This document shows, piece after piece, positions 5,869 through 21,344 of a stretch of DNA of 22,002 nt. Made by a program: the position numbers and the translations under genes. Every line of letters begins with the position of its first letter. Position 1 is the stretch's first letter. The notes under the pieces are model-generated. The model saw only the letters and a list, made by a program, of their open reading frames with translations, did not search any database and was not told the DNA's origin. Source of the DNA: a virus. The DNA lies in the IMG/VR virus record IMGVR_UViG_3300031523_000011, positions 1-22,002 of that record; one strand, given 5' to 3'.

Positions 5869-6453
5869 CTAGTACACAATCCAGTTTACGTTATAAAGCC
5901 CACGCGCTGGCGCGTTGAACATTCTGCCCTCAATCGTAAATCCTACACTTTCCACAATGTTTTTTGCGACGACTTGAATGGGGTCAAAGCTTAGCTCATC
6001 GACCGAGTGATCCGCAGTAGCCTCCATTCTCACGCGCGCGTCAACGATGGAGGTAGCCGTAATGCCTGCCACGCCCGTAACCACCACCGTCGCGCTCATT
6101 TCTCCGGCGCCGAAGTCTAACGCTGCCGCGCCGGTGGTGTACGTGTTGCCTGCCACCCCCTGAATGCCTTGAATGCCCTGGTCGCCCTGTACGCCCTGAT
6201 CACCTTTCGGCCCAGCGCTTGAAAGCGCCAAAGTTGACGCCGTAATAACCGTGCTGACGCTGGTCTCTAGATCCACGGTAATAACTTGCGGGTTGGTCAC
6301 GCTTACAGTCGTGGCCGGGCTTTCGACTAATGTGATCTCTATACCGTTGCCGCCAGGTGTGGCAAGTGTGGTCGTGTGCGTAACATCGACCGTGCGCACG
6401 ACTTCTGTGGTCGTCACCGTGCTTTCAGCGTCGCCCGTAAGCGTGATTTCCAT
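5869..6453 (-). CDS. Collagen-like repeat virion protein
   Basis: 194 aa. The N-terminal half is a Thr/Val-rich beta segment (many TTTV-type strings). The centre has a run of about eight collagen-type Gly-X-Y triplets (GPKGDQGVQGDQGIQGIQG, residues about 84-105), and the C-terminal part (about 110-194) looks like a compact globular domain ending FNAPARGLYNVNWIVY. Collagen-like triplets in phages occur in trimeric tail fibres and other surface spikes, where they act as spacers that hold a trimer together. The start ATG overlaps the stop of the preceding gene (TAATG), so the two are probably translationally coupled. Trimerisation and fibre role are inference. Confidence 0.6.
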   Translation of the reverse strand: MEITLTGDAESTVTTTEVVRTVDVTHTTTLATPGGNGIEITLVESPATTVSVTNPQVITVDLETSVSTVITASTLALSSAGPKGDQGVQGDQGIQGIQGVAGNTYTTGAAALDFGAGEMSATVVVTGVAGITATSIVDARVRMEATADHSVDELSFDPIQVVAKNIVESVGFTIEGRMFNAPARGLYNVNWIVY

Positions 6454-6803
6454 TATCGGGTTACGCCTCTGCTGACAGCTACAGCGCCCTCAATCACGCG
6501 CGTTACGCTGCCGTCGTCAACAGTAAAAAGCTCCACATCATAAACGTAGGCGCCTGAAGACAGTACGCCGCTAACCGAATTATGCATAGTAACTGCAATT
6601 GCGCCGGTAGCCGGTGCTGAAATGGTACACGTAAAATTGCTAACGACAACGCCGGCGTCTTTTGTGTTGCGGATCTGTGAGCGAGCAAAATAGCCAGTCA
6701 GGTCTTTGATGACCCCATCTTCTTTGATCACCAATTCAATCGCAAAGTCGGCGCCTTGATCAATAGCAAGATTGTAAGTCGCAGCGGTCATGGCAAGGCC
6801 CAT
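6453..6803 (-). CDS. BppU-like N-terminal domain, virion protein
   Basis: 116 aa. It begins with the pattern YNLAIDQGADFAIELV and has DLTGYFARSQIRN, SGAYVYDVEL and RVIEGAVAVSRGVTR, which resemble small phage proteins and BppU-type baseplate N-terminal domains ('dltgy.ar.qiR ... y.YDlel ... G.v.v...VTR'). Such beta-sandwich domains attach to baseplate, neck or fibre structures. Two in-frame ATGs are possible: 6803 and 6791; the second gives the more typical N-terminus MTAATYNL. Neither has a strong ribosome-binding site. It is the first gene of the leftward virion operon, placed a few bases after a candidate -10 promoter. Exact role unknown. Confidence 0.6.
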   Translation of the reverse strand: MGLAMTAATYNLAIDQGADFAIELVIKEDGVIKDLTGYFARSQIRNTKDAGVVVSNFTCTISAPATGAIAVTMHNSVSGVLSSGAYVYDVELFTVDDGSVTRVIEGAVAVSRGVTR

Positions 6804-6815
6804 TCAAATACAGTA

Positions 6816-6824
6816 ATTATAACA
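6816..6824 (-). promoter_or_regulatory. Candidate extended -10 promoter for virion genes
   Basis: On the minus strand the sequence TGTTATAAT (consensus -10 with the extended TG motif) lies just upstream of the first virion gene. A TTGAAT lies 19 nt further upstream as a poor -35. Transcription would start at about 6809, giving a very short leader. It lies just downstream of the intrinsic terminator at 6860-6882, so it could drive the virion genes independently. Confidence 0.5.
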
Positions 6825-6859
6825 GAATTAACAGCAATTGATTCAATAATGTTTCAGGC

Positions 6860-6882
6860 AAAAAAAGCGCCAATGAAGGCGC
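6860..6882 (-). terminator. Intrinsic terminator, leftward
   Basis: Minus-strand sequence GCGCC-TTCATT-GGCGC forms a perfect 5-bp GC-rich stem with a 6-nt loop and is followed at once by seven T. It would stop leftward transcription from the replication operon and from any promoter in the 6883-7174 leader before it reaches the virion genes. Confidence 0.85.
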
Positions 6883-7142
6883 AAATCTAGCAGGGGATAA
6901 AGCGAGGAAATTTGAGGTTTTGGGAAAAACTTGGCAGTGAGTTCCGAGTGCAAACATCAATCGAGGAATTTAACCAGCATTTGATGCTTGCCCGGATTGC
7001 CCGCGTGTGCGGTAAAACCTATTCAATTTTTTTCAGGGTACCAGGCCTCAGAACCGTTCCCGTCTGCAGAACCAAGGGAGATTTAAAGGAATCTTGCCCT
7101 TGCAAACAAACACTCTTTAGAGATGATCACTTGCTGGCGTCT
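6883..7142 (-). other. Unexplained leader between candidate promoter and terminator
   Basis: About 260 nt with no gene I can support. It is bounded upstream (minus strand) by a candidate promoter and downstream by an intrinsic terminator. It contains several short hairpins (AGCAT-TTG-ATGCT near 6978-6990, CCGC-GTGT-GCGG near 6999-7013), the palindromes TCTGCAGA, AGGCCT and GGTACC, and the heptamer GGTTCTG twice, 18 nt apart (minus strand). The layout recalls phage late leaders where a Q-type protein or a structured RNA makes RNA polymerase ignore the terminator. No such activity can be proven from sequence. Confidence 0.4.
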
Positions 7143-7170
7143 AGTATACGCCGATCCCGAAGTCTTGCAA
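7143..7170 (-). promoter_or_regulatory. Candidate late promoter (pR'-like position)
   Basis: Minus-strand TTGCAA (7165-7170) and TATACT (7143-7148) are separated by 16 nt, a good sigma70-type match just after the end of the replication operon. Transcription would begin at about 7136 and run through the leader to the terminator at 6860-6882. Confidence 0.45.
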
Positions 7171-7174
7171 GGAT

Positions 7175-7609
7175 CTATTGATTTAAACGCTCTTTAAGCA
7201 AGTAACCCTCAAGCAACCAGATCTTTTCTCGCGCATTACGAAAAGCAATCTGCCCGCCTAGCTCGGCGTCGAAGTTATCAAGGCTGACGCAGGCACTCTC
7301 GCCGGTAACTGTGAACCCATTTTTCAGAGTTAAGCAGCACACCGTTAGCACACCGTTAAATACATGGTACTGAGCACTTGCGATTCGCTCGTCAATCAGT
7401 CCCGGCGTTAGCCGAGGGGCGGCTAGCCCTTTTTCTTGAATGTTTTTTTCGAGCGCTTGGTCATCTGCGCTGAATGCTACTGCTACTGCTACTGCGCTTT
7501 CATTCATTATTACTTCCTTGGCTTTGCGTTTGGATTTGAAGCGTACACCTTTTTTCTTGCACTTACACTCAGGGTCGCCGGTTTTGATCCAGCAGTCGCC
7601 GCAAATCAC
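7175..7609 (-). CDS. Gp49-like (N4 Gp49 / Sf6 gp66 family) protein
   Basis: 144 aa from a GTG that overlaps the ninG stop (GTGA). Residues about 60-144 match the Gp49/gp66 phage family: APRLTPGLIDERIAS, then LTVCCLTLKNGFTVTGESA, then NAREKIWLLEGYLLKERL at the C-terminus. The function of this widespread family is not known. The first 34 residues are unusual: four Cys (CGDC and CKC) and a basic tail, like a small zinc-binding segment. An in-frame ATG at 7507 has a better ribosome-binding site (AAGGA, 7 nt away) and would give a 110-aa protein of normal family length, so two products or simply the shorter one are possible. It is the last gene of the leftward early operon. Confidence 0.8.
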   Translation of the reverse strand: MICGDCWIKTGDPECKCKKKGVRFKSKRKAKEVIMNESAVAVAVAFSADDQALEKNIQEKGLAAPRLTPGLIDERIASAQYHVFNGVLTVCCLTLKNGFTVTGESACVSLDNFDAELGGQIAFRNAREKIWLLEGYLLKERLNQ

Positions 7610-8187
7610 TGGTCAAACTCCAATTCCTTAACCTTGGCTGTATAAACTTTGATCATGCCCTGAATTACTGGTATTTGAGGCGTTTTTGCCATTTCGTGCG
7701 GGCCTTCTAGCAGCTCAACCAGCTCCAGCCCGATCTTTTTGATTAGCCTCACCCGATATTGTATCAGATTCCCGGATAAGTGATTGTTGCAAGTCGCGCA
7801 CTGCTTATGACAATTCGACTCATCCCACCGCAAATTTCCATTCGAGCCCTTGGGCAAGTAGTGACCAGCGTGCATCTGTCCCTCTTTCGTATCGCAAGAT
7901 ATACACCCATCTTCTCGATCACGTAGCCTTATAAATTTATTGAACTGAGTATCGAGCTTTTTTACCCAGTACCGTCGATCAGTGGCCCTTTGATCCTCTC
8001 TAAGGGCTTTTGTCTCAGCCCTACACGCTTTCACCTTGTGCTCTTTTGCTGCTGGCGTGCCTGCCCACTCGATCGCACACGACACCTTGCCGCAAACTAC
8101 CTGCATCGTGCTGAACTTTGGCTGAAACTTGTCCTTACACACTTTGCAGATCCGGTTACCAGCAGTCTTTAGCCTTGCGACCTTCAC
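7606..8187 (-). CDS. ninG: NinG (Rap) recombination protein
   Basis: 193 aa. NinG/Rap of lambda is a structure-specific nuclease that resolves recombination intermediates and aids Red/RecBCD-mediated exchange. Seen here: an N-terminal zinc-finger-like CKVC ... C...C, then the core CISCDTKEGQMHAGHYLPKG, LRWDESNCHKQCATCNNHLSGN and YRVRLIKKIG, with the His/Cys/Asn pattern of an HNH-like fold. Length is typical. The start is GTG (8187), overlapping the stop of the preceding small gene. Position after NinB is the same order as in the lambda nin region, although one small gene separates them here. Confidence 0.93.
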   Translation of the reverse strand: MKVARLKTAGNRICKVCKDKFQPKFSTMQVVCGKVSCAIEWAGTPAAKEHKVKACRAETKALREDQRATDRRYWVKKLDTQFNKFIRLRDREDGCISCDTKEGQMHAGHYLPKGSNGNLRWDESNCHKQCATCNNHLSGNLIQYRVRLIKKIGLELVELLEGPHEMAKTPQIPVIQGMIKVYTAKVKELEFDQ

Positions 8188-8333
8188 TTGCTCTGCCTCT
8201 TCCAGTCTGGCCTGCCCGCTGGCTTTGCGTATCGCGCAAGTATCCGCTGCGCAGCTGGATTCAGCGTCACCCAGTTCACGTAACCAGGATCTCGGGGAGC
8301 GCTGAAGCCGACTGGACCATATTTCTTGCTCAT
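8184..8333 (-). CDS. Small basic protein between NinB and NinG
   Basis: 49 aa, ATG at 8333, five bases after the ninB stop. The product is basic (MSKKYGPVGFSAPRD at the start, RPDWKRQSK at the end) and has no Cys, membrane segment or motif I recognise. Evidence that it is real: it fills the gap between two firm genes exactly, starts with ATG, ends in a 4-nt overlap with ninG (GTGA) and carries the GCAAGTGA junction seen in its neighbours. A nucleic-acid-binding accessory role would be a guess. Confidence 0.7.
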   Translation of the reverse strand: MSKKYGPVGFSAPRDPGYVNWVTLNPAAQRILARYAKPAGRPDWKRQSK

Positions 8334-8337
8334 AACC

Positions 8338-8766
8338 TTATCGCCTTGGCTTTGTTAGCTGAATTCCAAGCCCAGTGAAATGCTTGTAGACCTCATCTAG
8401 GAACGTTGCTTTCTGCTTTGTTGTCATAGCGCTGGTAACCGGCAGATCGATTGGGATCATCATAAAACTGAGCTTGTCTTCATAGCTTGCAGGCCTAATC
8501 AAGCGGTCGTACAACTCTCGGAATGCTTCGCTTTCGGATCTCAGAATCGGCACGCCAAAATGCAGCTTGCAAAACCCTCGATACTCTTCAGCAGTGCAGT
8601 CGCCTTGATCTGCAGCCTCTAACATCCACATCCGTTGTAATTTATTCTGCTCAATCGAACGCGGCGCACCTTTGCTTATCTTAACAGAAAACGGCATTTT
8701 TCGGGAGCTAATCGCCTTAATCGCCATGCTTAAATCTTGCTCGTTTCTAACCGCCCAGGTTGTCAT
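8338..8766 (-). CDS. ninB: NinB recombination protein
   Basis: 142 aa, typical for the family. NinB (lambda Orf) binds SSB and single-stranded DNA and replaces RecFOR in loading recombinase during phage recombination. Visible family features: a KGAPRSIEQNKLQRMWML segment near the middle, CTAEEYRGFCKLHFGVP, and a C-terminal SAMTTKQKATFLDEVYKHF. The start ATG overlaps the stop of the DUF1289 gene (ATGA-type). A phage-encoded SSB is present in the divergent operon and is a plausible partner. Confidence 0.9.
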   Translation of the reverse strand: MTTWAVRNEQDLSMAIKAISSRKMPFSVKISKGAPRSIEQNKLQRMWMLEAADQGDCTAEEYRGFCKLHFGVPILRSESEAFRELYDRLIRPASYEDKLSFMMIPIDLPVTSAMTTKQKATFLDEVYKHFTGLGIQLTKPRR

Positions 8767-8939
8767 GGGACCGCCTCCAGTTCTCGTATCATTGCGCTTG
8801 CAATTATTTGGGTCCGCTCCAACCAGCCAGCACCCTTCCAGGCCGCAATCTCGTCAAGACTGCGGAAACAGCCGACGCAGTAACCCTCTTCGCTTAGATC
8901 GCAGACGTTGACGCAGGGCGATACGCTTGAGCCACTCAT
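8763..8939 (-). CDS. DUF1289 small Cys-rich protein
   Basis: 58 aa. The sequence SPCVNVCDLSEEGYCVGC followed by FRSLDEIAAW matches the DUF1289 pattern 'PC...C.....yC.GC.Rt..EI..W'. Four Cys (residues 9, 13, 21, 24) probably bind zinc or another metal. Bacterial members are short proteins of unknown function; phages also carry them. The start codon overlaps the stop of the previous gene (TAATG) and the stop overlaps the ninB start, so it is embedded in the replication/nin operon. Function unknown; the family assignment is good. Confidence 0.85.
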   Translation of the reverse strand: MSGSSVSPCVNVCDLSEEGYCVGCFRSLDEIAAWKGAGWLERTQIIASAMIRELEAVP

Positions 8940-9319
8940 TACTTGCTTCCCTCGTTAATTTGCTCGACGCTAGAAAGAAGGGTAATTATAGGCGCTGTGA
9001 GTACATACTCTTTGCCGTCCACATCACACCAGCTTTTAATGATGTTGCGGTGAGCGCGTAGCTTTCCGTTCTCTAACCTATACCGATCGTTCTCAGCATT
9101 CAACCGCTCGATCTTATGATTACACTGAGCGAGGTTGTGCATTAACTCCTCCTTCTCCCAAGCTGCGTTGACTTTGAGTCTTGCATTCAACCGCTCGATC
9201 TCAACGGCCGCCTCGCGCATTAGATATTTCCCGTTGTACCCGAGATCAGGTATGTCTTTCGGGTATTGACGCAGCGCTTCGACTAGTGTCGCTGTCTTGT
9301 AATCAAAGTCTTTGCGCAT
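8939..9319 (-). CDS. Coiled-coil protein, unknown
   Basis: 126 aa from the ATG at 9319, which has a GGGAG ribosome-binding site 8 nt upstream; a TTG five codons earlier is a weaker alternative. The middle (about residues 40-100) is a Leu/Glu/Lys/Arg-rich coiled coil (EIERLNARLKV, then KIERLNAENDRYRLENGK). The ends look globular. No enzyme motif. It resembles the small helical proteins commonly found in phage early operons. It ends ...GSK at the conserved GCAAGTRATGA junction shared with neighbours. Confidence 0.7.
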   Translation of the reverse strand: MRKDFDYKTATLVEALRQYPKDIPDLGYNGKYLMREAAVEIERLNARLKVNAAWEKEELMHNLAQCNHKIERLNAENDRYRLENGKLRAHRNIIKSWCDVDGKEYVLTAPIITLLSSVEQINEGSK

Positions 9320-9320
9320 A

Positions 9321-9584
9321 TCACTTGCTCCCAATTCTTGTAGGGCATTTAAAAATCTCTACGGCGTGCGTAGCGGCATTGTTCCTACTAGCAAATCCCG
9401 CCGTGTGCCGGACTTGAACGCCGGGGATAGTGCTGACTAAAGTCCAGCTTTTCCGCATCTTAAAAATCTGACCTAACAGTATTTCACCCGCGTAGAAATT
9501 GTATGCGGGGGAGTCGGCTTGATTATGTCTTACAAACATCCAATCCAGCACTTTTCCTTCATGAACCATGGAGTACTTACTCAT
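9321..9584 (-). CDS. Small unknown early protein
   Basis: 87 aa from the ATG at 9584, which overlaps the end of the upstream gene by 8 nt (ATGAGTAA). The protein is mixed alpha/beta (MSKYSMVHEGKVLDWMFVRH at the N-terminus, then a basic, aromatic stretch), with one Cys and no membrane segment. I do not recognise a family. It ends ...RIGSK, and that end codes the GGGAGCAAGTGAT sequence that is also the ribosome-binding site of the next gene. Confidence 0.65.
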   Translation of the reverse strand: MSKYSMVHEGKVLDWMFVRHNQADSPAYNFYAGEILLGQIFKMRKSWTLVSTIPGVQVRHTAGFASRNNAATHAVEIFKCPTRIGSK

Positions 9585-9750
9585 CACTAGCCACCTTTTT
9601 ACCGTTATACACCTTACAGTGACCAACTGCATCCGCTGCTTTCTTGCTGTAATTAACGCACCAGTTGTTGTACTTGCTCGCTAAACGCGAGCCTTTTTTG
9701 TGCCCCGCATTATGCCGATACACACACTCTTTACAGTGTCCATCACTCAT
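9577..9750 (-). CDS. Small Cys-rich protein, possible zinc binder
   Basis: 57 aa from the ATG at 9750. It has four Cys, one as HCKEC near the N-terminus (residues 6 and 9), one in NNWCVNYSKK and one in GHCKVYNGKK, with many Lys and His: a pattern like a small zinc-binding or phage 'treble clef' protein. No DNA-cutting motif is visible. The start overlaps the end of the preceding membrane-protein gene by 8 nt (ATGAGTGA). Longer upstream extensions of this frame lack a ribosome-binding site and run antisense to nothing useful, so I prefer the short form. Confidence 0.65.
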   Translation of the reverse strand: MSDGHCKECVYRHNAGHKKGSRLASKYNNWCVNYSKKAADAVGHCKVYNGKKVASDE

Positions 9751-9934
9751 CACTTGCCCTCGCGATAAGCCCAAGCATTGTCGTCGCGATAATGCCGATG
9801 AAAGAAAGCATGAAGAATCCCATTGCTCCAATCGAGTCTTTTTCGACGACTGCCACGCCAGCTTGTATAACATTACAGATTATTGACAGCGAGCCAACAA
9901 AGACCAACGATTTCAGCGTTGGTTTATTAATCAT
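9743..9934 (-). CDS. Small two-helix membrane protein
   Basis: 63 aa. Two hydrophobic segments are clear: LVFVGSLSIICNVIQAGVAVV (about residues 10-30; 20-residue core) and a second, GFFMLSFIGIIATTMLGLIA (about 39-58), joined by a short polar loop (EKDSIG). It would be an inner-membrane hairpin. The start ATG overlaps the preceding stop (TGATG); a GTG one codon earlier is possible. Role unknown; phage early membrane proteins of this kind often act on the host envelope or in superinfection exclusion, but nothing here proves it. Confidence 0.65.
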   Translation of the reverse strand: MINKPTLKSLVFVGSLSIICNVIQAGVAVVEKDSIGAMGFFMLSFIGIIATTMLGLIARASDE

Positions 9935-11631: not shown

Positions 11632-11660
11632 TCGAATATCCTCACTGATTGATTTAACGC

Positions 11661-11689
11661 ATTGTAATATTATTTTGGGCCATCGTCAA
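11661..11689 (-). promoter_or_regulatory. Leftward early promoter
   Basis: Minus-strand TTGACG (11684-11689), 17-nt spacer, TACAAT (11661-11666). Transcription would start at about 11654, some 22 nt before the HTH gene. The 8-bp palindrome TAATATTA (11665-11672) overlaps the -10 and could be a binding site, though it is short and AT-only. Confidence 0.75.
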
Positions 11690-11718
11690 TCTGTTGCGCT
11701 TATTTATTGCCAAATTAC

Positions 11719-11816
11719 ACTATACATAGCAGTCAGGAAGCGTTGCCGGCCGGAAAGAGTAATTGCCTGGAGCCATAGAGAATCATTTCATTTATTTGTT
11801 ATAGTTACTTGACTAT
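11719..11816. promoter_or_regulatory. Candidate operators in the divergent control region
   Basis: ATAGT-N6-ACTAT (11801-11816) overlaps the -35 of the rightward promoter. A related dyad with ACTAT and ATAG half-sites 2 nt apart lies at 11719-11729. Both could be sites for the small HTH protein. Half-sites are only 4-5 bp, so this is a weak inference. Confidence 0.3.
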
Positions 11817-11836
11817 CAGCTGAAAGCGCGTATATT
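11809..11836 (+). promoter_or_regulatory. Rightward early promoter
   Basis: TTGACT (11809-11814), 16-nt spacer, TATATT (11831-11836). Transcription would start at about 11843. The leader then contains four copies of GCAAC in a short run before the first gene. This single promoter probably drives the whole plus-strand early operon, since I see no other strong promoter or terminator before 20349. Confidence 0.75.
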
Positions 11837-11874
11837 GAACTCATCAAGCAACGCAACGCAACGGGAGCAACATC

Positions 11875-12075
11875 ATGATCAAATCTTTTGAAAACTACAC
11901 AGCAAATGCAATCCAATGGAAAAAGCGCTACGCGGACGGCGAAACGGCTACGGTGGTTGTTGACAATTGCGGCGTGACGCGAGCAATGGTTCGAGAAGCG
12001 TTTGAAGCGCAAGAAGCCGGGTTTGAGATTGCATGTTTTGAAAAGTCTGACATGGGAATGTGGCAAGCCCGATAA
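11875..12075 (+). CDS. Small unknown early protein 1
   Basis: 66 aa, first gene after the rightward promoter, with GGGAG 7 nt before the ATG. The product (starting MIKSFENYTANAIQWKKRY, ending EKSDMGMWQAR) is helical and slightly acidic with two Cys and no recognised motif. First genes behind a strong early promoter often code for host-modifying proteins; that is only context. It is followed by hairpin element E2. Confidence 0.7.
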   Translation: MIKSFENYTANAIQWKKRYADGETATVVVDNCGVTRAMVREAFEAQEAGFEIACFEKSDMGMWQAR

Positions 12076-12080
12076 CAACA

Positions 12081-12094
12081 GGGTCAGGGATGCC
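12081..12094 (+). repeat. GNRA hairpin element E2 (diverged copy)
   Basis: GGGTCAGGGATGCC: stem GG/CC and CA/TG with a bulged T and a GGGA loop, still of GNRA type. It starts 5 nt after the stop codon, and the ribosome-binding site AAGGAG of the next gene follows closely. The flank AACAACA is shared with E4. Confidence 0.65.
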
Positions 12095-12110
12095 GAAGGA
12101 GAAGAGTAAC

Positions 12111-12269
12111 ATGGTAACGCTACAATATTTTAATGGCATAGAGTGGGTTGAGTGGGGCAAGTTCGGCCACGACAGAATGGCTTGGATTAGCTTAGGTGGT
12201 GATGACTTTAACTATCGAACAATTGACAGTGGCGGAAATGTCGTCACTGACAAATCAATACAAGCATAG
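12111..12269 (+). CDS. Small unknown early protein 2
   Basis: 52 aa, ATG with AGGAG about 9 nt upstream. The sequence is rich in Trp, Gly and Asp (YFNGIEWVEWGKFGHDRMAW) and looks like a small beta-sheet protein. No family recognised. It is flanked on both sides by hairpin elements (E2 before, E3 after). Longer forms starting upstream would run through E2 and lack a ribosome-binding site. Confidence 0.65.
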   Translation: MVTLQYFNGIEWVEWGKFGHDRMAWISLGGDDFNYRTIDSGGNVVTDKSIQA

Positions 12270-12275
12270 CAACGG

Positions 12276-12289
12276 GGGCAGTGATGCCC
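12276..12289 (+). repeat. GNRA hairpin element E3
   Basis: GGGCAGTGATGCCC, a perfect copy, 6 nt after the stop codon of the preceding gene and followed directly by the GAGGATAA ribosome-binding site of the next. Confidence 0.9.
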
Positions 12290-12302
12290 GAGGATAATTG
12301 AA

Positions 12303-12506
12303 GTGACAGCAGACTTAAAAGTAAATAGATATACCCTAAGCAATCGGCTCCGCGGAGTTTATGAAGTAGGCCCGAATGTCTATACAACAGCACCTTTTGC
12401 GGCTTTCATCCCGCCAATTTGCATCGAAGCAGCCGACAAGATTGATTTGTTGATAAGCGAATGTGCTGCACTAAAAATTAAAATTGCAAAATTAGAAGCT
12501 ATCTAA
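12303..12506 (+). CDS. Small unknown early protein 3
   Basis: 67 aa from a GTG start with GAGGA about 9 nt upstream; there is no ATG early in this frame. The N-terminal half (LKVNRYTLSNRLRGVYEVGP) looks like a short beta domain, and the C-terminal half is a helix likely to form a coiled coil (IDLLISECAALKIKIAKLEA). No family recognised. Flanked by hairpin elements E3 and E4. Confidence 0.6.
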   Translation: MTADLKVNRYTLSNRLRGVYEVGPNVYTTAPFAAFIPPICIEAADKIDLLISECAALKIKIAKLEAI

Positions 12507-12512
12507 CAACAG

Positions 12513-12526
12513 GGGCAGTGATGCTC
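12513..12526 (+). repeat. GNRA hairpin element E4
   Basis: GGGCAGTGATGCTC: the base change in the right arm turns a G-C pair into G-U, so the 5-bp stem is kept. It starts 6 nt after the stop codon and is followed by AAAGGATAA, the next ribosome-binding site. Confidence 0.85.
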
Positions 12527-12539
12527 AAAGGATAAAGCG

Positions 12540-12848
12540 ATGGCACTTAAATACATAAAAAGCTATTACGGCATCAGCGCCAGCATTGGTCAGCGTGTGA
12601 AGGTCGATGGCAAGCCCGGAATTATAGTGGCAGATCAAGGCCACCATCTGGGCGTTAATTTTGACGAAGACAAACCAGGAGCTGTAAGCAACTGCCACCC
12701 AACGTGGCGCGTCGATTATCTTGAAATGGGGGCGATCAGAAAGCAGACAAAGGCGCAGGCGCGTTACCAACATTATTTAGAAGTGGGCGACCAGTTTGAT
12801 AGTTTCCTGCACTTTTTGCAGGCCAACGTCAAACCCTCGCAAGCATAG
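12540..12848 (+). CDS. Unknown phage protein with SH3-like N-terminal segment
   Basis: 102 aa, ATG with AAGGA 7 nt upstream. The N-terminal 60 residues (IGQRVKVDGKPGIIVADQGH, then LGVNFDEDKPG and CHPTWRVDYLEMG) resemble a small beta-barrel segment I have seen in many phage early genes ('G..V.vdGkpG.i......l.v.fD......HPtW...Y'). The C-terminal 35 residues (ARYQHYLEVGDQFDSFLHFL) are helical. Function unknown. It is the last small gene before the recombination cassette and is followed by hairpin E5. Confidence 0.7.
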   Translation: MALKYIKSYYGISASIGQRVKVDGKPGIIVADQGHHLGVNFDEDKPGAVSNCHPTWRVDYLEMGAIRKQTKAQARYQHYLEVGDQFDSFLHFLQANVKPSQA

Positions 12849-12853
12849 CAACA

Positions 12854-12867
12854 GGGCAGTGATGCCC
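12854..12867 (+). repeat. GNRA hairpin element E5
   Basis: GGGCAGTGATGCCC, perfect, 5 nt after the stop codon. Unlike E1-E4 it is separated from the next start (the annealing protein) by 38 nt, an AC-rich stretch with its own AAAGGA ribosome-binding site. Confidence 0.9.
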
Positions 12868-12905
12868 ATAAATAAACACAGCACACCACAGCAAAGGACG
12901 GATAA

Positions 12906-13673
12906 ATGAGCGGAAAACTTGCAACAGTTCAGGATCAACAAACTTCTTTGATTGCTACATTTGGCAATCGTTACGGGGTCAACGAAAACAAAGTGCTCCA
13001 AACCTTGAAGGCAACAGCGTTCAAGCAGAGCGGCGGGAAAGATGTTAGCAACGAGCAGATGATTAGCCTTCTCGTTGTTGCGAACGAGTACAACCTCAAC
13101 CCTTTTACAAAGGAAATATACGCTTTTTCGTCAAATGGCGGAATCACTCCAATCGTCAGTATAGATGGATGGATGAAAATCGTTAACGCGCACCCAGACA
13201 TGGACGGGATGGAATTTAGCGACAATATTGTTGATAACAAGTTGGTTTCAATTACTTGCTCAATATTTCGAAAGGGCCGGTCGCACCCGACAACGGTTAC
13301 CGAATATTTGGAAGAGTGTAAAAAATCGACGGACCCATGGAAAAAATGGCCTGCGCGAATGTTGCGGCACAAAGCTGCTATCCAGTGTGCTCGCTACGCT
13401 TTTTCACTTTCGGGAATCTCCGATCCAGACGAAGCCGACCGTATTCAAGAGAGCATCAAAGTAGTCGACGACGAGTCTGTTGTAATTGATTGCGTAGATG
13501 TTGAGACAGCAAATTACCCTGAACAAAAATTCAACGACAACTATCCAGCATGGAAGGCCGCAATTGAATCGGGAAAGCTAACTCCGGGCGCGATCATTGC
13601 AAAGTTAGAAACAATCGGGCCGATCACTGACGGGCAAAGGAAATCCATTCACAGCATAGAGGCGAGATCATGA
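12906..13673 (+). CDS. bet: Single-strand annealing recombinase, Bet/RecT family
   Basis: 255 aa. It coats and anneals complementary single strands exposed by the neighbouring exonuclease. Family signature is clear: LNPFTKEIYAFSSNGGITPI, IVSIDGWMKIVNAHPD, ITCSIFRKGRSHPTTVTEYL and PWKKWPARMLRHKAAIQCAR followed by YAFSLSGISDPDEADRI, which matches the lambda Bet group more closely than E. coli RecT. The C-terminal 60 residues vary, as usual. The stop overlaps the exonuclease start (ATGA), so both are probably made together. Start ATG with AAAGGACGG upstream. Length is normal (lambda Bet is about 260 aa). Confidence 0.95.
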   Translation: MSGKLATVQDQQTSLIATFGNRYGVNENKVLQTLKATAFKQSGGKDVSNEQMISLLVVANEYNLNPFTKEIYAFSSNGGITPIVSIDGWMKIVNAHPDMDGMEFSDNIVDNKLVSITCSIFRKGRSHPTTVTEYLEECKKSTDPWKKWPARMLRHKAAIQCARYAFSLSGISDPDEADRIQESIKVVDDESVVIDCVDVETANYPEQKFNDNYPAWKAAIESGKLTPGAIIAKLETIGPITDGQRKSIHSIEARS

Positions 13674-15271
13674 GTGAAGCGATTACGCACACGGAAAAGC
13701 AAGGTTCAGCCGAGTGGCTTTCGCTGCGACAGAAGTTCAACACGGCATCAGAGGCCAGCGCAATGATGGGCGTTGACAAGCACACGACGAGAGACGAATT
13801 GCTTGCGCTGAAGGCTGGCGGACCTGCAAAAGAGTTTAGCGATTACACAAAAAACGTTGTTTTTCCGAGGGGTCATGAAGTTGAAGCCCTAGCCAGGCCG
13901 ATCGCGGAGACGGTGATAGGCGGCGAGCTTTACCCTGTCGTCATGAGCAGGAACGGCTTGCTTGCTAGTTGTGACGGGATTGTGATGCTGGAGGACGTTG
14001 CTTGGGAGCACAAACAATGGAGCGAGTCGCTAGCCGATTCCATCTTGAACTTTGGAATACCAGATTCTCATATTTGGCAACTCGTTCAAATTTGCTATGT
14101 CACCGACTGCGAAAAGATTTTATTTACTGTTTCCGATGGCACGGATGAAAATCTTGTAAATTGCTGGTATGACGCGAACGCGGACGACAGGCGCAAACTC
14201 CTTGCAGGGTGGGAACAGTTCGACAAGGACGTCGCTAATTACGTGCACGCGGCGCCAGCGCCAAAACCTGTAGCTGACAGCATCGATTCACTGCCGGCGC
14301 TTAATATTAGAATTACCGGAGAAGTCGCTGAGTCTAATCTAGCAGCTTACCGCGATCGGGCTATGCAGATCATTAGCGCGATCAATACGAACTTGATAAC
14401 CGATCAGCATTTTGTGGACGCCGAAGCTGCGGTTAAATGGTGCGCCAGCGCTGAAAGCAAGGTTGAATCAATCAAAGAGCAGGCGTTATGTCAGACACGA
14501 AGTATCGACGAACTTTTTAAAGCAATGGACGAGATCAAGGAAACGCTGCGTCAAAAGCGGTTATCGCTAGACAAGTTGGTCAAGACGGAAAAAGAAAGCC
14601 GAAAGCGCGAGATGATTAAAGCTGCAGAGGGCAATTTGTGCGACGAGATTCACATCGCAAACGAAGCTCTGAGCCCTGTTCGCGTCAATGTCTGCGCTGA
14701 CTTTGCTTCTGCGATCAAGGGCAAGCGCACTATTGAGTCACAACAAAACCAAATCAACACGGAGCTCGCCAGGGCCAAGATTGAGATAACTTGCCAGGCT
14801 CGCGAGATTACAAGCCGCCTTGAAGTTATCAAGAATTTTGAGGCGTACGATTTCCTGTTTCGCGATCTTCAGCATCTTGTAAGTCTTGAAGAAGACAATT
14901 TACTACTTGTCGCGACTGTGCGAGTCGAGGGCTACGAGCAAAAAGAAAAGGCAAGGCGTGTGGCAAAAGAAGCCGCCGAAGTTGCGGAAAAGTTACGAAT
15001 TGAAACAGCGATGGCCGCAAAGCTGGAGGCCGAAACGCCGCCATCTGCGAGCCTTCAATACGACTCAAAGATATCAACGGTAGTGTCAACAATAGCGCAG
15101 TGGGCAGAGCCAGCGGCAATGACGATTCAGCCGAGCAAACTTATCATAATCACATATAAGAACATGAAGTCAGGACCGAAATTACTGGAAATAATGGACG
15201 CGGAAGGCAACGAACTTTCGATAGAAGCAACCGGCGACGGTCAAATCAAAACTATTACAATAGAGGTGTAG
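13670..15271 (+). CDS. YqaJ-type exonuclease with long C-terminal helical extension
   Basis: 533 aa. The first 200 residues are a lambda-exonuclease/YqaJ-like PD-(D/E)XK nuclease: [20 protein letters not shown] (substrate-binding part), GHEVE (E70 or E72), the catalytic Asp in SCDGIV (D102) and E-x-K in WEHKQ (E113, K115). It would resect double-strand ends 5'-3' and hand the single strand to the annealing protein encoded just upstream. Residues about 205-470 form an extended helical/coiled-coil region ([36 protein letters not shown]), and the last 50 residues form a small beta domain. The extension at least doubles the size of a simple YqaJ nuclease and is seen in some other phages; its role is unknown. 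Confidence 0.88.
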
Positions 15272-15275
15272 AAAA

Positions 15276-15710
15276 ATGGCACGAGGAATCAACAAAGTAA
15301 TTTTAGTCGGCAATCTTGGCAATGATCCAGAGACGCGCAGCATGCCTAACGGCGGGAGCGTTGCAAATATCAGTATCGCGACCAGTGAGTCCTGGAAGGA
15401 CAAGACTACGGGTGACCAGCAGGAACGTACAGAATGGCACAAGGTCGTTTTTTTTGGAAAGCTTGCTGAGATTGTCGCCCAATACCTGAAGAAAGGTTCC
15501 AGCGTCTACGTTGAAGGCTCCTTACGCACAAATCAATGGGAGAAAGATGGGCAAAAGCACTATTCCACAGAAGTTATTGCCAGCGAGATGCAAATGTTAG
15601 GCGGTCGCGGCGATGGCGACAACGGCGGCGGTGGTCAGAGCAACTCAGGCGGCAATAGAGGCGGATCTGCGCAGCCGATTGACGACTTTGATCAGTCGAT
15701 TCCATTCTAG
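15276..15710 (+). CDS. ssb: Single-stranded DNA-binding protein
   Basis: 144 aa. It has the OB-fold of bacterial [60 protein letters not shown], and [20 protein letters not shown] Gly/Asn-rich linker follows (about 108-132), then the acidic tail DDFDQSIPF, the docking peptide by which SSB recruits partner proteins. It protects single-stranded intermediates in replication and recombination, and NinB and RdgC are likely functional neighbours. Five nucleotides separate it from the exonuclease gene. The intact tail indicates a fully functional protein. Confidence 0.97.
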
Positions 15711-15743
15711 CCGTTACTTTTACGCAGTAAATCAAAGGCAAGA

Positions 15744-16190
15744 ATGATGCAATCTAAAAAATGCTTTAAATGTGGGGCTGAAAAGCCCCTAGAGGAATTT
15801 TACAGGCATCCGATAATGGCCGATGGCCGTGTCAACAAATGCAAACTGTGCAATAAATTCGACGTTACAGCCAATCGCGTCAAAAATATTGAGCATTACA
15901 GGCTCTATGATCGCAGTAGAGGGGGCAGGTGGTCGCCGGGATATTCGCGGGCTTGGCGGGAAAAGAACCCGCAAAAGTATAAAGCTCAAAGCATGGTAAA
16001 CAACTCAATCCGAGACAAAAAGCTATCTCGACAGCCGTGCGAAGTTTGCGGAACTGATAAGAGCATTCACGGTCATCACGACGATTACCTGAAACCGCTA
16101 GACGTTCGATGGCTGTGCGCGGTCCATCACAGCCAATGGCACAAAGAAAACGGCGAAGGGCTAAATGGATCAGTCAACGCTAAAACATAA
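15744..16190 (+). CDS. HNH-like zinc protein
   Basis: 148 aa. Two Cys4-type zinc sites are visible: CFKCGAEKPLEEF with CKLC (residues about 7-37), and CEVCGTDKSIHGHHDDYLKP with LCAVHHSQWHKENG (about 98-138). The second resembles an HNH endonuclease (C..C ... HGHHDDY ... H..WH), with the paired His that would form the beta-beta-alpha metal site. It may be a free-standing phage HNH nuclease or a structural DNA-binding relative. It has its own AAAGG ribosome-binding site. Whether it cuts DNA, and where, cannot be told; it sits between the recombination genes ssb and rdgC. Confidence 0.75.
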   Translation: MMQSKKCFKCGAEKPLEEFYRHPIMADGRVNKCKLCNKFDVTANRVKNIEHYRLYDRSRGGRWSPGYSRAWREKNPQKYKAQSMVNNSIRDKKLSRQPCEVCGTDKSIHGHHDDYLKPLDVRWLCAVHHSQWHKENGEGLNGSVNAKT

Positions 16191-16220
16191 ATCAACCCAA
16201 TTAAATTAAGAGAAGATATC

Positions 16221-17171
16221 ATGAAATTTAAAGCAGCACGGATTTACACGCTAAAGCAACCGCTTGACCTTTCTACTTTTGACGAAGACCTGGCGAAGCT
16301 GGCGTTTGTCCCATGCTCTGGTTTGCGGGCCGAATCAGCTGGGTGGGTTGCGCCTTTCGACGGCGCCCCGGGACTTTTCCGCGACGCCCGGGAAGCGATT
16401 GCGCTGAAGCTGAGAAAGCAGAAAAAGGCAATCCCGGCGTCGGCGCTTGCTGACGCGCTGAAAGAAAAAGTCGACAAGCACACGGAATTATTTGGTTCAG
16501 CGCCAAGCGTCAAAGTCAAGCGAGATCTAAAAGACGACTGCATTGCAGAAATGACGCCGGATGCATTGCCCGTCACAGCCTCAATTGACATGCTGATCTT
16601 CGATAAATTTATCTGCATCGGTACGTCGTCGGCGGCTGACGCTGAACTAGCTCTGACGACGTTACGCTCGACGCTTGGGACTTTGCCCGTCCTGCCGCTT
16701 GCGTCTTGTAACGAGCCAAAAGAGGCGTTCACAGAATGGCTTTCTGATTATGCATCCCCAGAAGGTACTTTTTTGGGATGCAATTTTGATCTGATTGACT
16801 CTCAGCACGGATCGAAGGCGAAGTTTCGATCCGTGGAGCCAAGCGAGGATGTAACTGGATTAATTCGCGACGGCATGAGCTGCACGAAAATCCAACTTTC
16901 GACGCAAGACCTGCATTTTTCAGTAGATAACAACCTGGCATTTTCTTCGATCATCGATCGTCGAGAGATAAGCGACGAAATCGATGCAGAGGAGGATCCT
17001 GATGCGCGCTACGACGCCGATGTGATTCTAGCTGCGGACATGCTGCGGTTGCTCATAAATACGACCATCACTGCCCTAGGCGGTTCTCCTGAATCGACAG
17101 AAAAAGAGCTGCTTGCGCCGCCATTTCACTCAAACTGCCCGTTGATTTATTTATTTGATTTAATTGATTGA
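16221..17171 (+). CDS. rdgC: RdgC-like recombination-associated protein
   Basis: 316 aa, close to the 303 aa of E. coli RdgC. RdgC forms a ring on double-stranded DNA and limits RecA access. Visible family features: a start of the form MKFKAARIYTLKQPLDL, CSGLRAESAGWVAPF near residues 33-47, LRKQKKAIPASALADALKEK, and the C-terminal SCTKIQLSTQDLHFSVDNNL. The sequence is otherwise diverged from the E. coli protein, as phage copies usually are. It sits in the same operon as the annealing protein, exonuclease and SSB, so it probably controls RecA during phage recombination. The start ATG has a modest AGAGAAG upstream. Confidence 0.88.
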   Translation: MKFKAARIYTLKQPLDLSTFDEDLAKLAFVPCSGLRAESAGWVAPFDGAPGLFRDAREAIALKLRKQKKAIPASALADALKEKVDKHTELFGSAPSVKVKRDLKDDCIAEMTPDALPVTASIDMLIFDKFICIGTSSAADAELALTTLRSTLGTLPVLPLASCNEPKEAFTEWLSDYASPEGTFLGCNFDLIDSQHGSKAKFRSVEPSEDVTGLIRDGMSCTKIQLSTQDLHFSVDNNLAFSSIIDRREISDEIDAEEDPDARYDADVILAADMLRLLINTTITALGGSPESTEKELLAPPFHSNCPLIYLFDLID

Positions 17172-17227
17172 TGTATCAGATAGGATTTAGTAATATTAAT
17201 TACATCAACAACGAAGCAGGAATAGAA

Positions 17228-17470
17228 ATGATTGACGCAGTAGATTTGACAGGAACACAAGAGTATTTGAATAAAGACGGCATGCTGTGTGAAAAGAGTT
17301 ATCGCCTGATGAAACGCTATGCCCAAGGACATGACGAGTTCATAACTTGCATGGTCATAGACAGGCTGCCAGCCAGCGCCGCACGAATGACTTTTGACCG
17401 GGAAGCGCAACACTGCAGCATGAGAGACGAAGTTTGGCTAGAGTTGGATTGCAGCTACACAGTCAACTAG
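17228..17470 (+). CDS. Small unknown early protein
   Basis: 80 aa. I chose the ATG at 17228 because AGGA lies 6 nt upstream; an ATG at 17171 and a TTG at 17168 in the same frame have no ribosome-binding site. The product (MIDAVDLTGTQEYLNKDGML at the start) is mostly helical then beta-like, with five Cys and no CxxC pair, and ends WLELDCSYTVN. No recognised family. It lies between rdgC and the pentapeptide-repeat gene. Confidence 0.65.
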   Translation: MIDAVDLTGTQEYLNKDGMLCEKSYRLMKRYAQGHDEFITCMVIDRLPASAARMTFDREAQHCSMRDEVWLELDCSYTVN

Positions 17471-17510
17471 GCATCTAAAACATGACAATAACGCGCAGCG
17501 AGGCAAAGAA

Positions 17511-18206
17511 ATGAAAAAAATAACACAATCTGAATTTGAAGAAAAAGTCAAGCTGCACAGACTGTGGCGTGAGGACCATAGCGATGGCGTCAGGTTAGTT
17601 TTGACCGGCTGCATTTTGACCGGCATCGATTTTAGCGGCTGCAACTTTCGCGGCAGCGACTTGAGCTACTGCAACTTGCTCCACTGCGACTTGCGCAACA
17701 GTGACATGCGCCACTGCAACTTGAGCTACGGCAACTTGCGCCACTGCGACTTGCGCAACAGTGACATGCGCAACTGCAACTTGAGCTACTGCAACTTGAG
17801 CGGCAGTGACATGCGAGGCAGTGACTTGAGCGACAGCGACTTGACGGGTTGCAACTTGGATGGCTGCGACTTGACCGACGCAATCATTCCTTCGCCAGCG
17901 GCGCCTATTGCAACTCCAAAAGGCCCGCAGACCCGCCAAGGTATTTTAGACACAGCCCGAAGCCACGTCAGCAAGGATCGTGAGTCTACAAGCGAGTCGC
18001 CGGAGGATAGTTTCGGCGTCATTGCAGAATATTGGGAAACCCATCTGGGCCACCCAGTCAAAGCCACGGACGTGGCAATAATGATGGCATTGCTAAAGGT
18101 CGCAAGGCTGCGTACCACGCCTACCAGCCTTGACAGTTGGGTTGATTTGGCGGGTTACGCAGCTTGCGGTGGTGAGATCGCGATGAAGGACAAGACTGAT
18201 GCATAG
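17511..18206 (+). CDS. Pentapeptide-repeat protein fused to DUF6378 domain
   Basis: 231 aa, ATG with GAGG upstream. After a 30-residue helical start, about 18 pentapeptide repeats run from near residue 31 to 125, of the form (S/N/C)(D/N)(L/M/F)xx, as in GSDLSYCNLLHCDLRNSDM. Such repeats build a right-handed beta-helix; in MfpA/Qnr proteins this shape mimics DNA and binds gyrase, but many other functions exist. A short linker leads to a C-terminal domain (about 155-225): GVIAEYWETHLGHPVKATDV, then MALLKVARL and DLAGYAACGGE, which matches the phage domain DUF6378. I have not commonly seen this pairing. The repeats are unusually rich in Cys, which alternate with Ser at the same position. Confidence 0.85.
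   Translation: MKKITQSEFEEKVKLHRLWREDHSDGVRLVLTGCILTGIDFSGCNFRGSDLSYCNLLHCDLRNSDMRHCNLSYGNLRHCDLRNSDMRNCNLSYCNLSGSDMRGSDLSDSDLTGCNLDGCDLTDAIIPSPAAPIATPKGPQTRQGILDTARSHVSKDRESTSESPEDSFGVIAEYWETHLGHPVKATDVAIMMALLKVARLRTTPTSLDSWVDLAGYAACGGEIAMKDKTDA
17661..17840 (+). repeat. 60-bp tandem repeats encoding whole beta-helix turns
   Basis: Three 60-bp units begin at 17661, 17721 and 17781, and each starts TTGAGCTAC. Units 1 and 2 differ at 3 of 60 positions; unit 3 is more diverged after its first 20 bp. One unit codes four pentapeptides, that is one full coil of the beta-helix, so the array looks like a recent duplication of one structural turn. Confidence 0.8.
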
Positions 18207-18417
18207 GCTTATAGTAAGAAACGCCCTGGGCGAGCAAATTGGAATTAAGAAGATCGACATTGCCAAGATTTCGTCAGCTTTTGCGATGAGAACCGCGCAG
18301 CTCCGAGACGAAGCGCAAAAAATTGTCAAAAATATTAAGACTGAATCGGCAGAAAAAGATTTTCGGTGGGTACTAATAAGCCATTCAAACCGAGCAATTT
18401 CAGAGGGGAAGTTATGA
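18199..18417 (+). CDS. Small unknown early protein
   Basis: 72 aa. It starts with an ATG overlapping the end of the pentapeptide gene by 8 nt, with GGA 8 nt upstream. The product is basic and helical (IGIKKIDIAKISSAFAMRTA, then AQKIVKNIKTE), ending WVLISHSNRAISEGKL. No Cys, membrane segment or recognised family. The end overlaps the next gene's start (4 nt), and this overlap style continues through the following genes. Confidence 0.6.
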   Translation: MHRLIVRNALGEQIGIKKIDIAKISSAFAMRTAQLRDEAQKIVKNIKTESAEKDFRWVLISHSNRAISEGKL

Positions 18418-18665
18418 AGCCAATTATTTATGTAAGCATCGACGCCAGCGGCGGCATTGCCGCGATGCAAGTTGCACACCCGACAAGCCCGCCGGCAGAC
18501 GGACTCGCTTGGATCACATACGCACCCGCGAGCTCGAATCTCGCCGGTGCGTTGGAGGAAAACAAAAAGCTGGAAGCCCGAAACAGCCAGCTTCGCAAAG
18601 AAGTTCGCCACCACGATACGCGGGCCGCAATGCGGGCTCAAGAGCGATCTGAGGGAATGCCGTGA
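18414..18665 (+). CDS. Small unknown early protein
   Basis: 83 aa, ATG with a strong GAGGGGAAG site. The N-terminal half is beta-like (MKPIIYVSIDASGGIAAMQV), the C-terminal half a charged helix (LEENKKLEARNSQLRKEVRH) that could form a coiled coil. No family recognised. Confidence 0.6.
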   Translation: MKPIIYVSIDASGGIAAMQVAHPTSPPADGLAWITYAPASSNLAGALEENKKLEARNSQLRKEVRHHDTRAAMRAQERSEGMP

Positions 18666-18883
18666 TGAATAAATCCTGCTTGTTTTGTAAAAAAGAGCTA
18701 GTTCGACGCACGATAGCAGCCGGCAGGCTAGAAAACGTAACGCAGTATCGGCGCAGAAAGTATTGCAACAAAAAATGCATTGCAGCGCTTAAAAAGACGG
18801 GCGTTGTGACTTCGCCCACATACGCAAGCGATCATGTGCCCTTTGTAAAAATGGCACGCAAGCTTTGGAGATTACCGGCATGA
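18665..18883 (+). CDS. Small four-Cys zinc-finger-like protein
   Basis: 72 aa from the ATG at 18665 (TGATG overlap with the preceding stop); a GTG one codon earlier is also possible and better spaced from GAGGG. Two Cys pairs, CLFCKKEL near the N-terminus and YCNKKCIAAL around residues 32-37, separated by a basic stretch (RRTIAAGRLENVTQYRRRKY), look like a small zinc finger. The basic charge suggests nucleic-acid binding. Exact family unknown. It overlaps the next gene by 4 nt (ATGA). Confidence 0.65.
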   Translation: MNKSCLFCKKELVRRTIAAGRLENVTQYRRRKYCNKKCIAALKKTGVVTSPTYASDHVPFVKMARKLWRLPA

Positions 18884-19044
18884 CTGAATTTATGAGCATG
18901 GCTGAGGCAATGGCTGAAATCGAGCGTTTGAATGCAAGACTAGAGATTTTGCAAGATGCTGCAGACAACGGCGTGCTAGTAACACGCGCTGAGACCGAGC
19001 AGACGGACGACGTAATTCATGACGCTCTTTGGGGGTGCAAGTGA
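18880..19044 (+). CDS. Small unknown early protein
   Basis: 54 aa. ATG overlaps the preceding stop (ATGA); the product has an N-terminal helix of coiled-coil type (MAEAMAEIERLNARLEILQD) and an acidic end (TEQTDDVIHDALWGCK). It ends at a GCAAGTGATGA junction like those in the leftward operon. No family recognised. It is the first of four consecutive small genes with heptad-type helices. Confidence 0.55.
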   Translation: MTEFMSMAEAMAEIERLNARLEILQDAADNGVLVTRAETEQTDDVIHDALWGCK

Positions 19045-19193
19045 TGAATGAATTAATATGTAGTTGCGGCGCTACGTGCTCTGAAGTTGAGAGACTAGAA
19101 GCAGATTTGAAGCTAAGTCAGGAAGAGGTAGTTTATCTTCGCAAGCGCTTGAATATTGACGTGTACGGCAACCCATTGGCGGTAGAGCTATGA
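19044..19193 (+). CDS. Small Cys-containing coiled-coil protein
   Basis: 49 aa, ATG at 19044 overlapping the preceding stop (TGATG) with GGGGG and GCAAG upstream. The N-terminal CSCGATC has three Cys close together, followed by a heptad-type helix (VERLEADLKLSQEEVVYLRK). No recognised family. Its stop overlaps the next ATG (ATGA). Confidence 0.55.
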   Translation: MNELICSCGATCSEVERLEADLKLSQEEVVYLRKRLNIDVYGNPLAVEL

Positions 19194-19492
19194 GCATTAA
19201 AAAGTATGAACTTTACGTTGACAATTATCAAGATGACAACGGCGACGACTGCAGCAATGTCGAGCACATCGGCGACGACAAAGGCGATTGGTGCAAAGCC
19301 AGCGACGTTGAAGAGCTGCAAGCCAGTCATGCGGCTGAGATTAGGCTGGTGCGATCAGCCAGCGAGCGGCTTTTTCGAGACAATAAAAAACTGCAAGCTG
19401 ACTTGTACATTCTTGCAACAACTCGTGCAACTCTGTCCGACGAAAACGAAAAGTTGCGCAATTTAATCAAAGACTTGGAGCAAAAGTCATGA
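19190..19492 (+). CDS. Small acidic coiled-coil protein
   Basis: 100 aa. The N-terminal 40 residues are acidic, with a cluster of Asp (YELYVDNYQDDNGDDCSNVE), followed by a long helix with heptad pattern (EELQASHAAEIRLVRSASER, then NEKLRNLIKDLEQ). ATGA overlap with the preceding gene. No enzyme motif. An acidic surface patch is common in phage proteins that bind host DNA-binding partners, but that is speculation here. Confidence 0.6.
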   Translation: MSIKKYELYVDNYQDDNGDDCSNVEHIGDDKGDWCKASDVEELQASHAAEIRLVRSASERLFRDNKKLQADLYILATTRATLSDENEKLRNLIKDLEQKS

Positions 19493-19668
19493 TTGAAAGC
19501 ATTGCGGCAATCGAGCAGAAAATCAGCGAGTCAGACAAGATCTCCAAAGAAATCGATGAATTTTTAGCGAAAGGCCTGGAAATTACCGGCGTCGATTTTG
19601 GTGCCGGGCAAAGCAGCGATAAGCCTTGGGGCGATTATCAATCTAAGACTGAAAAAGAGGCAAGTTGA
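19489..19668 (+). CDS. Small unknown early protein
   Basis: 59 aa, ATGA overlap with the preceding gene. Helical first half (MIESIAAIEQKISESDKISK), then a short polar segment (TGVDFGAGQSSDKPWGDYQS). It ends EKEAS, whose codons contain the GAGGCAAG ribosome-binding site of the next gene. No recognised family. Confidence 0.55.
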   Translation: MIESIAAIEQKISESDKISKEIDEFLAKGLEITGVDFGAGQSSDKPWGDYQSKTEKEAS

Positions 19669-19669
19669 A

Positions 19670-19819
19670 ATGAAAATAACAAACGAAAACGGCCTTTACG
19701 TAGCGACATTTAGGCACAGAAGCGGCGAGATCTGCATGGGGTTCGCCCCTTCATGGATTGAAGCTGTTAACTACTGCCTGGAGCGGTTTAAAGAGCGTAA
19801 CGCCAAAGGACTAAGCTAA
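19670..19819 (+). CDS. Small unknown early protein
   Basis: 49 aa, ATG with GAGGCAAG upstream. It reads MKITNENGLYVATFRHRSGE followed by a helix (SWIEAVNYCLERFKERNA), a small beta-beta-beta-alpha arrangement that recalls DNA-interacting domains such as AP2 or Arc-like folds, but too short for a firm call. Its stop overlaps the start of the AP2 plus HTH gene (TAATG), so the two are probably made together. Confidence 0.55.
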   Translation: MKITNENGLYVATFRHRSGEICMGFAPSWIEAVNYCLERFKERNAKGLS

Positions 19820-20349
19820 TGCGCAAGATTAAATCGCCGTATCACATAGATCTAGACCTTGCAGACTCTCCTGAACCTGCATATCAGGCAGCGGGGGCTA
19901 GGAGCAAAACTGGCGTAAAAGGCGTTTCCATTTGCAAAAATGGAAAATACAGAGCATCTTTAACAGTGAGTGGCGCTCGTAAGTCGCTCGGATACTTTTC
20001 ATCTTTGCCGGAAGCCGCTGACGCTGTTAAGCACGCTGAAGCTTTTTATGGACCCTCATCAGGCAAACTTGTTCGAGTAGCTGTAAGCGTTCACCCAGAC
20101 CACATTCAAGCTCTACAGCAGCACGTTAAGCTAAATCTGCAGGAGCCGTTTACGCCAGATCCGCGATCAAGATTTACAGCCGACGAAATTTCGAGCATAC
20201 AACGGCTGTCCAGGAGCCGACAAAAAAAGCAAGTAGAGATTGCAGCAATGTATAACTGCGGCCAAGGCACAATATCCAAAATAATAAGAAGCGGATGTTC
20301 AACGGGGAAAAAGCGCGCCGAACAATCCTTGACTTTTTTGCGGATTTAA
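19819..20349 (+). CDS. AP2-like plus HTH DNA-binding protein
   Basis: 176 aa. Residues about 28-78 form an AP2/integrase-arm-like three-stranded DNA-binding domain: SKTGVKGVSICKNGKYRASL, then KSLGYFSSLPEAADAVKHAE. In phages AP2 domains usually come with an HNH nuclease; no HNH is visible here. Instead, residues about 116-158 look like a helix-turn-helix: FTADEISSIQRLS followed by QVEIAAMYNCGQGTISKIIR. The combination suggests a sequence-specific regulator or a degenerate homing-type DNA-binding protein. As the last gene of the rightward early operon it is a candidate late regulator, but nothing in the sequence shows its target. Confidence 0.75.
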   Translation: MRKIKSPYHIDLDLADSPEPAYQAAGARSKTGVKGVSICKNGKYRASLTVSGARKSLGYFSSLPEAADAVKHAEAFYGPSSGKLVRVAVSVHPDHIQALQQHVKLNLQEPFTPDPRSRFTADEISSIQRLSRSRQKKQVEIAAMYNCGQGTISKIIRSGCSTGKKRAEQSLTFLRI

Positions 20350-20360
20350 AATTAGGCAAA

Positions 20361-20907: not shown

Positions 20908-20908
20908 T

Positions 20909-21343: not shown

Positions 21344-21344
21344 A

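Follow-up and report, generated by a model that had tools for sequence, protein, structure and literature searches.

The locus described here raises the question of how a phage switches on its virion genes: by letting polymerase through a terminator with the help of an antiterminator, as in lambda, or from a promoter that lies past that terminator. The window, i.e. the whole stretch of DNA analysed, is a complete linear virus genome record of 22,002 bp. No phage record was matched when the whole window was used as a megablast query, and a blastn search with positions 6300-8200 gave, among the places listed, matches only in the Gp49 gene. The best relatives have single genes in common with the window, at 40-73% identity, and the leader is not among them.

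The early operon runs on the minus strand from 11631 to 7175 and encodes a Cro-like protein, O-like and P-like replication proteins, small orphans, NinB, NinG and a PF13876 protein. Past the gap that follows it, tail-fibre-like proteins, TerS, TerL, portal and MuF are encoded on the same strand up to the fragment end. A left-type operon with RecT, exonuclease, SSB and RdgC occupies 11875-20349 on the plus strand, and lysis-like genes are found at 20386-21866 on the minus strand. Apparently, neither an integrase nor a CI-type repressor is recognised among the fragment genes examined. This gene plan is lambdoid, and the gap at 6792-7174 is therefore taken as the early/late boundary. The genes around it are:

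8338..8766, minus strand: NinB (phrog_7283, E 8e-24)
7606..8187, minus strand: NinG (PF05766, E 4e-50)
7175..7609, minus strand: last early gene, PF13876 (N4 Gp49/Sf6 gp66 = Acb4 anti-CBASS family), E 2e-27
6453..6803, minus strand: first gene after the boundary (phrog_1084, also phrog_3304, L-shaped tail fibre assembly), for which ATG 6791 is the likelier start

Elsewhere in the window, the RdgC homologue of the left operon is located at 16221-17171 (+) (PF04381, E 2e-49). At the end of the same operon, the protein encoded at 19819-20349 (+) contains a region common to HNH endonuclease families, probably an AP2-like domain, as well as a helix-turn-helix at its C-terminus, and is a possible regulator. 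The top-scoring terminator-like hairpin of the window, at 20352 (-), lies where the lysis-like genes and the left operon converge and is likely the end of the late operon.

A noncoding leader closed by a terminator

With 383 bp, the gap is the largest noncoding stretch in a fragment that is 95% coding (5% noncoding); the second largest is the 243-bp divergent region at 11632-11874, and every other gap measures at most 57 bp. An 89-codon plus-strand ORF in the gap scored -0.16 bits/codon, compared to a mean of -0.19 for antisense controls and approximately +0.1 to +0.25 for most genes, and the longest ORF of the gap (plus strand) had no phage match. Both strands score like noncoding controls, and the gap is noncoding. 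A gene within the leader, on either strand, was ruled out by the coding scores and the absent phage matches. From the last early gene to the terminator there are ~290 noncoding nucleotides. The elements of the gap, together with the divergent region used for comparison, are as follows:

7143..7170, minus strand: promoter-like site P7148, with TTGCAA at 7170-7165, a 16-nt spacer and TATACT at 7148-7143; expected start ~7136
7136..7152, no strand assigned: 17-bp near-palindrome GGCGTCTAGTATACGCC, spanning the -10 of P7148
6883..7136, minus strand: noncoding leader of ~250 nt between P7148 and the terminator
6882-6860, minus strand: intrinsic terminator GCGCC-TTCATT-GGCGC-T7, with a 5-bp all-GC stem, a 6-nt loop and seven T
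6816..6846, minus strand: predicted extended -10 promoter P6821, with TTGAAT at 6846-6841, a 19-nt spacer and TGT-TATAAT (TGTTATAAT) at 6824-6816; expected start ~6809
11632..11874, no strand assigned: divergent early promoter region, with a pR-like -10 at 11666 (-) and pL-like -10s at 11800 and 11831 (+)

The terminator is thus present where the original prediction had placed it, and the ~250 nt claimed to be without a gene are indeed noncoding. An equally strict terminator was found in 0.1% of dinucleotide shuffles of the gap, and the whole window contains two that are this strict, including the one at 6882-6860. The intactness of this terminator and of the promoter-like site, the fact that phages usually delete useless DNA and the missing phage match of the plus-strand ORF make it very unlikely that the leader is a functionless decayed remnant, e.g. 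of a lost Q gene or of an inserted accessory gene, as might be proposed from the noncoding scores of both strands and the adjoining accessory gene acb4.

The leader had also been proposed to act by its own RNA, like a put-type antiterminator, on account of several hairpins and a repeated GGTTCTG. The HK022 put RNA is ~70 nt long and forms two stems (PMC9378689), and two adjacent stem-loops (3-35 and 36-62) can likewise be drawn at the transcript start, within the first 63 nt of the leader, for which the fold gave a z of -2.2. However, this fold is not robust: z was -0.7 for 71 nt and +0.75 for 147 nt, where stem I is lost from the prediction, and only -1.6 for the whole leader, so that the several hairpins were overstated. 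GGTTCTG does occur twice, but as one among many short repeats of the region. The leader matched no Rfam family (the best weak match was TarA, with 20.6 bits versus a cut-off of 80 bits), put is absent from the Rfam matches, and HK022 putL and putR were not located by the comparison tried. Moreover, known put elements work on early transcripts, whereas this leader is in a late position. That the leader RNA itself renders polymerase terminator-resistant is therefore hardly credible.

The boxA-type sequence CGCTCTTTA occurs three times in the window, compared to 1.2 expected; the site near the leader, at 7188-7196, is on the plus strand and thus on the wrong strand for the leader. On that same strand, a strong terminator-like hairpin is found at 7407-7431, inside the Acb4-like gene, and together with the boxA-like site it might possibly belong to an antisense transcript.

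Promoter-like sites before and after the terminator

P7148 had been described as a sigma70-like promoter with the arrangement TTGCAA-N16-TATACT. Its elements are present as described, but the site is weak, as it is a 9/12 match and 22.5% of the gap dinucleotide shuffles contain a match of 9/12 or better anywhere. A score at least as high within the first 90 nt past the last early gene was reached in 4.5% of the shuffles, and in the profile ranking the site is number 15 of ~44,000 positions on both strands. Its position directly behind the last early gene is its sole support. The modest match is nevertheless compatible with function, since the late promoter of HK022 is likewise only a 9/12 match. 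The spacer carries TCGG-N2-TCGG, as do 8% of shuffled spacers, and a -10-like GATCAT (4/6 match, 27% of shuffles) is located at +9 of the transcript; both sit where the binding and pause elements of lambdoid Q sites are found (PMC6606751), but they are near chance and only weak candidates for such elements. The near-palindrome GGCGTCTAGTATACGCC, which has no exact copy among viral contigs and about ten counterparts of similar score in the window, is a possible candidate operator.

P6821, past the terminator, ranks second of the ~44,000 positions on both strands, behind only the pR-like early promoter. The motif TGnTATAAT is found in 0.45% of the gap dinucleotide shuffles, and a site as good as P6821 past the terminator in 0.1% when the whole gap was shuffled and in 0.85% when the shuffle was local. 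Its -35 is weak (TTGAAT) and its spacing long (19 nt). In the divergent region, the sites at 11666, 11800 and 11831 rank 1, 8 and 3, respectively; that pR-like and pL-like sites come first and third suggests that the ranking finds real promoters. Noncoding DNA makes up only 5% of the window, and yet the top three sites of the ranking all fall between genes. No other predicted promoter of the region has as much support as P6821, which the original prediction had mentioned as an alternative route.

A 13-mer, TGTTATARTTACT, is identical at P6821 (6812-6824, -) and at the early promoter-like site 11800 (11797-11809, +) and occurs nowhere else in the window; by this sequence identity, the two sites may have a common regulator or belong to a common promoter class. 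An operator common to the gap and the divergent early region was rejected: the only candidate was this promoter-like 13-mer, and 13% of shuffles match a 13-mer so well.

Taken together, the region is probably an ordinary early/late switch of a lambdoid-type phage that resembles lambda's. The reading that we favour, with a probability of roughly one half and from sequence evidence, is that the early operon ends at the terminator and that most transcription of the virion operon begins at a sigma70 promoter of its own, P6821. The terminator at 6882-6860 would end the rightward early operon transcripts (Cro-like, O/P-like, NinB, NinG and Acb4-like) and would also stop any RNA begun at P7148, whereas host sigma70 polymerase would mainly start the virion operon at P6821, from 6791 leftwards off the fragment. 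P6821 would thus be the active start and P7148 a minor one. Since the strong P6821 lies past the terminator, no antiterminator would be required for the virion genes. On the other hand, start at P6821 explains neither the ~290-nt noncoding stretch, where other intra-operon gaps are at most 57 bp, nor the promoter-like site that, like that of a Q leader, lies right behind the early operon; the weak -35 of P6821 and its long spacing also count against this reading, and a strong unregulated promoter would switch the virion genes on early.

The leader, which lies between a promoter-like site and a strong terminator, would also suit a stable ~270-nt RNA that runs from P7148 to the terminator, comparable to lambda 6S or a regulatory RNA, the virion genes being transcribed from P6821. 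The missing Rfam family and the whole-leader z given above argue against such an RNA, which we consider unlikely.

The gene in the Q slot and the search for an antiterminator

If P7148 acted as a pR', an unrecognised Q-like protein would load there and polymerase would pass the terminator into the virion genes. Such lambda-like late control is a tentative second choice, sustained chiefly by the long noncoding leader that is otherwise unexplained. The lambdoid gene order, the HK022 late promoter with its equally modest match and the TCGG repeat and GATCAT of P7148 also speak for it, although the two last are near chance, and P6821 removes the need for antitermination.

The slot in which a Q gene would be expected is filled by 7175..7609. 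Acb4 is an anti-CBASS sponge, which binds cyclic dinucleotides and blocks CBASS. The family core of the protein begins at ATG 7507 and is preceded by an N-terminal Cys-rich extension (CxxC..CxC) that is absent in the 26 aligned relatives. Its profile matches the Acb4 structure PDB 9E4W (hmmsearch E 3e-8), and so does its predicted fold (Foldseek E 1e-5, with a core pLDDT of ~95); PF13876 has been named as the Acb4 family (PMC11722364). Because of these profile and fold matches and the naming of the family, the protein is most likely a counter-defence protein rather than an antiterminator, as far as sequence and model indicate. Acb4/Gp49 was also rejected as a Q protein because the family is found in many unrelated contexts, in addition to its match to the anti-CBASS structure.

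The Q families of Pfam, PHROGs and NCBIfam gave no match at E<=1 among the right-operon proteins, and PF06530 and PF03589 are absent from the whole record in a six-frame search. The original prediction was thus right that no Q-like gene is recognisable in the operon. The antitermination that it proposed would need a Q of an unrecognised kind, which may exist, as there is no Q family match and the Q slot is taken by an Acb4/PF13876 gene. Candidates for such a Q would be orphan small proteins such as those at 8939-9334, 9321-9632 and 9577-9873; the first of these, modelled without an alignment, gave a low-confidence, helical structure. A working late antitermination leader, whose antiterminator belongs to a family outside the profile libraries and is encoded among the orphans at 8939-9873, with P6821 as a parallel route, is doubtful.

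In other loci, the Q slot downstream of NinG is filled by phrog_3412, of unknown function (L119, 4054-5003; L118, L250, L206, L221 and L219). Most of the named ones are Pseudomonas prophages; in these loci, phrog_3412 has a promoter-like site and a terminator behind it. phrog_3412, which is absent from the record studied here, may be an unrecognised Q family.

Comparison with known late switches

When 295 sequences were searched for long gaps that have a terminator close to the following gene, 23 rows resulted. In L107 (phrog_943), L259 (phrog_127) and the weakly Q-like L279, the order is Q gene, promoter, leader, terminator and late genes. In such Q-type loci the -10 is usually found 18-62 nt past the Q stop, with the terminator and then the late gene after it; in the window, the -10 is at +26 and the terminator at +292 from the last early gene, and the layout fits. 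The likeness to lambda pR'-tR' was therefore fairly drawn, and it counts in favour of lambda-like control. However, only a minority of the long terminator-ended gaps in the fetched loci lie directly behind a recognised Q gene, and L072 and L096 show the same layout between structural genes, so that layout alone is no proof of antitermination. The window stands apart from the Q-leader controls by its site past the terminator. Where a Q or Q-like gene precedes the leader in relatives, no site between the terminator and the following gene scores above 10.2; in the window, the score is 12.4.

As in lambda and HK022 pR'-tR', a promoter-like site right behind the last early gene, a noncoding leader of some hundreds of nucleotides, an intrinsic terminator and late genes follow each other, with nin-type genes upstream. 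Unlike in these phages, no Q is recognised and an Acb4-family gene takes the slot before the promoter, the best promoter-like site is past the terminator, and the virion (tail-fibre-like) genes come first instead of the lysis genes. The short direct repeat in the spacer of P7148 and the -10-like hexamer early in its transcript recall the Q/qut system of phage 21. The two qut subsite positions, -21 and -13, are 8 bp apart (PMC6606751), whereas the repeat spacing in the window is 6 bp, the features are near chance and a Q protein is missing. As in late operons that have their own sigma70 promoter behind an early terminator, a strong predicted extended -10 promoter heads the virion operon of the window, a short distance past the terminator; unlike in them, a second, weaker promoter-like site and a ~250-nt noncoding leader lie upstream of the terminator. 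A start at P6821 and a lambda-like leader may also operate together.

In uncultured phages, late-gene switches are for the most part inferred from layout only, and a convincing pR'-tR' layout can be found without a known Q and with a better promoter past the terminator. If an antiterminator acts here, a new Q family would be gained; if none does, the locus would call for caution against calling antitermination by layout.
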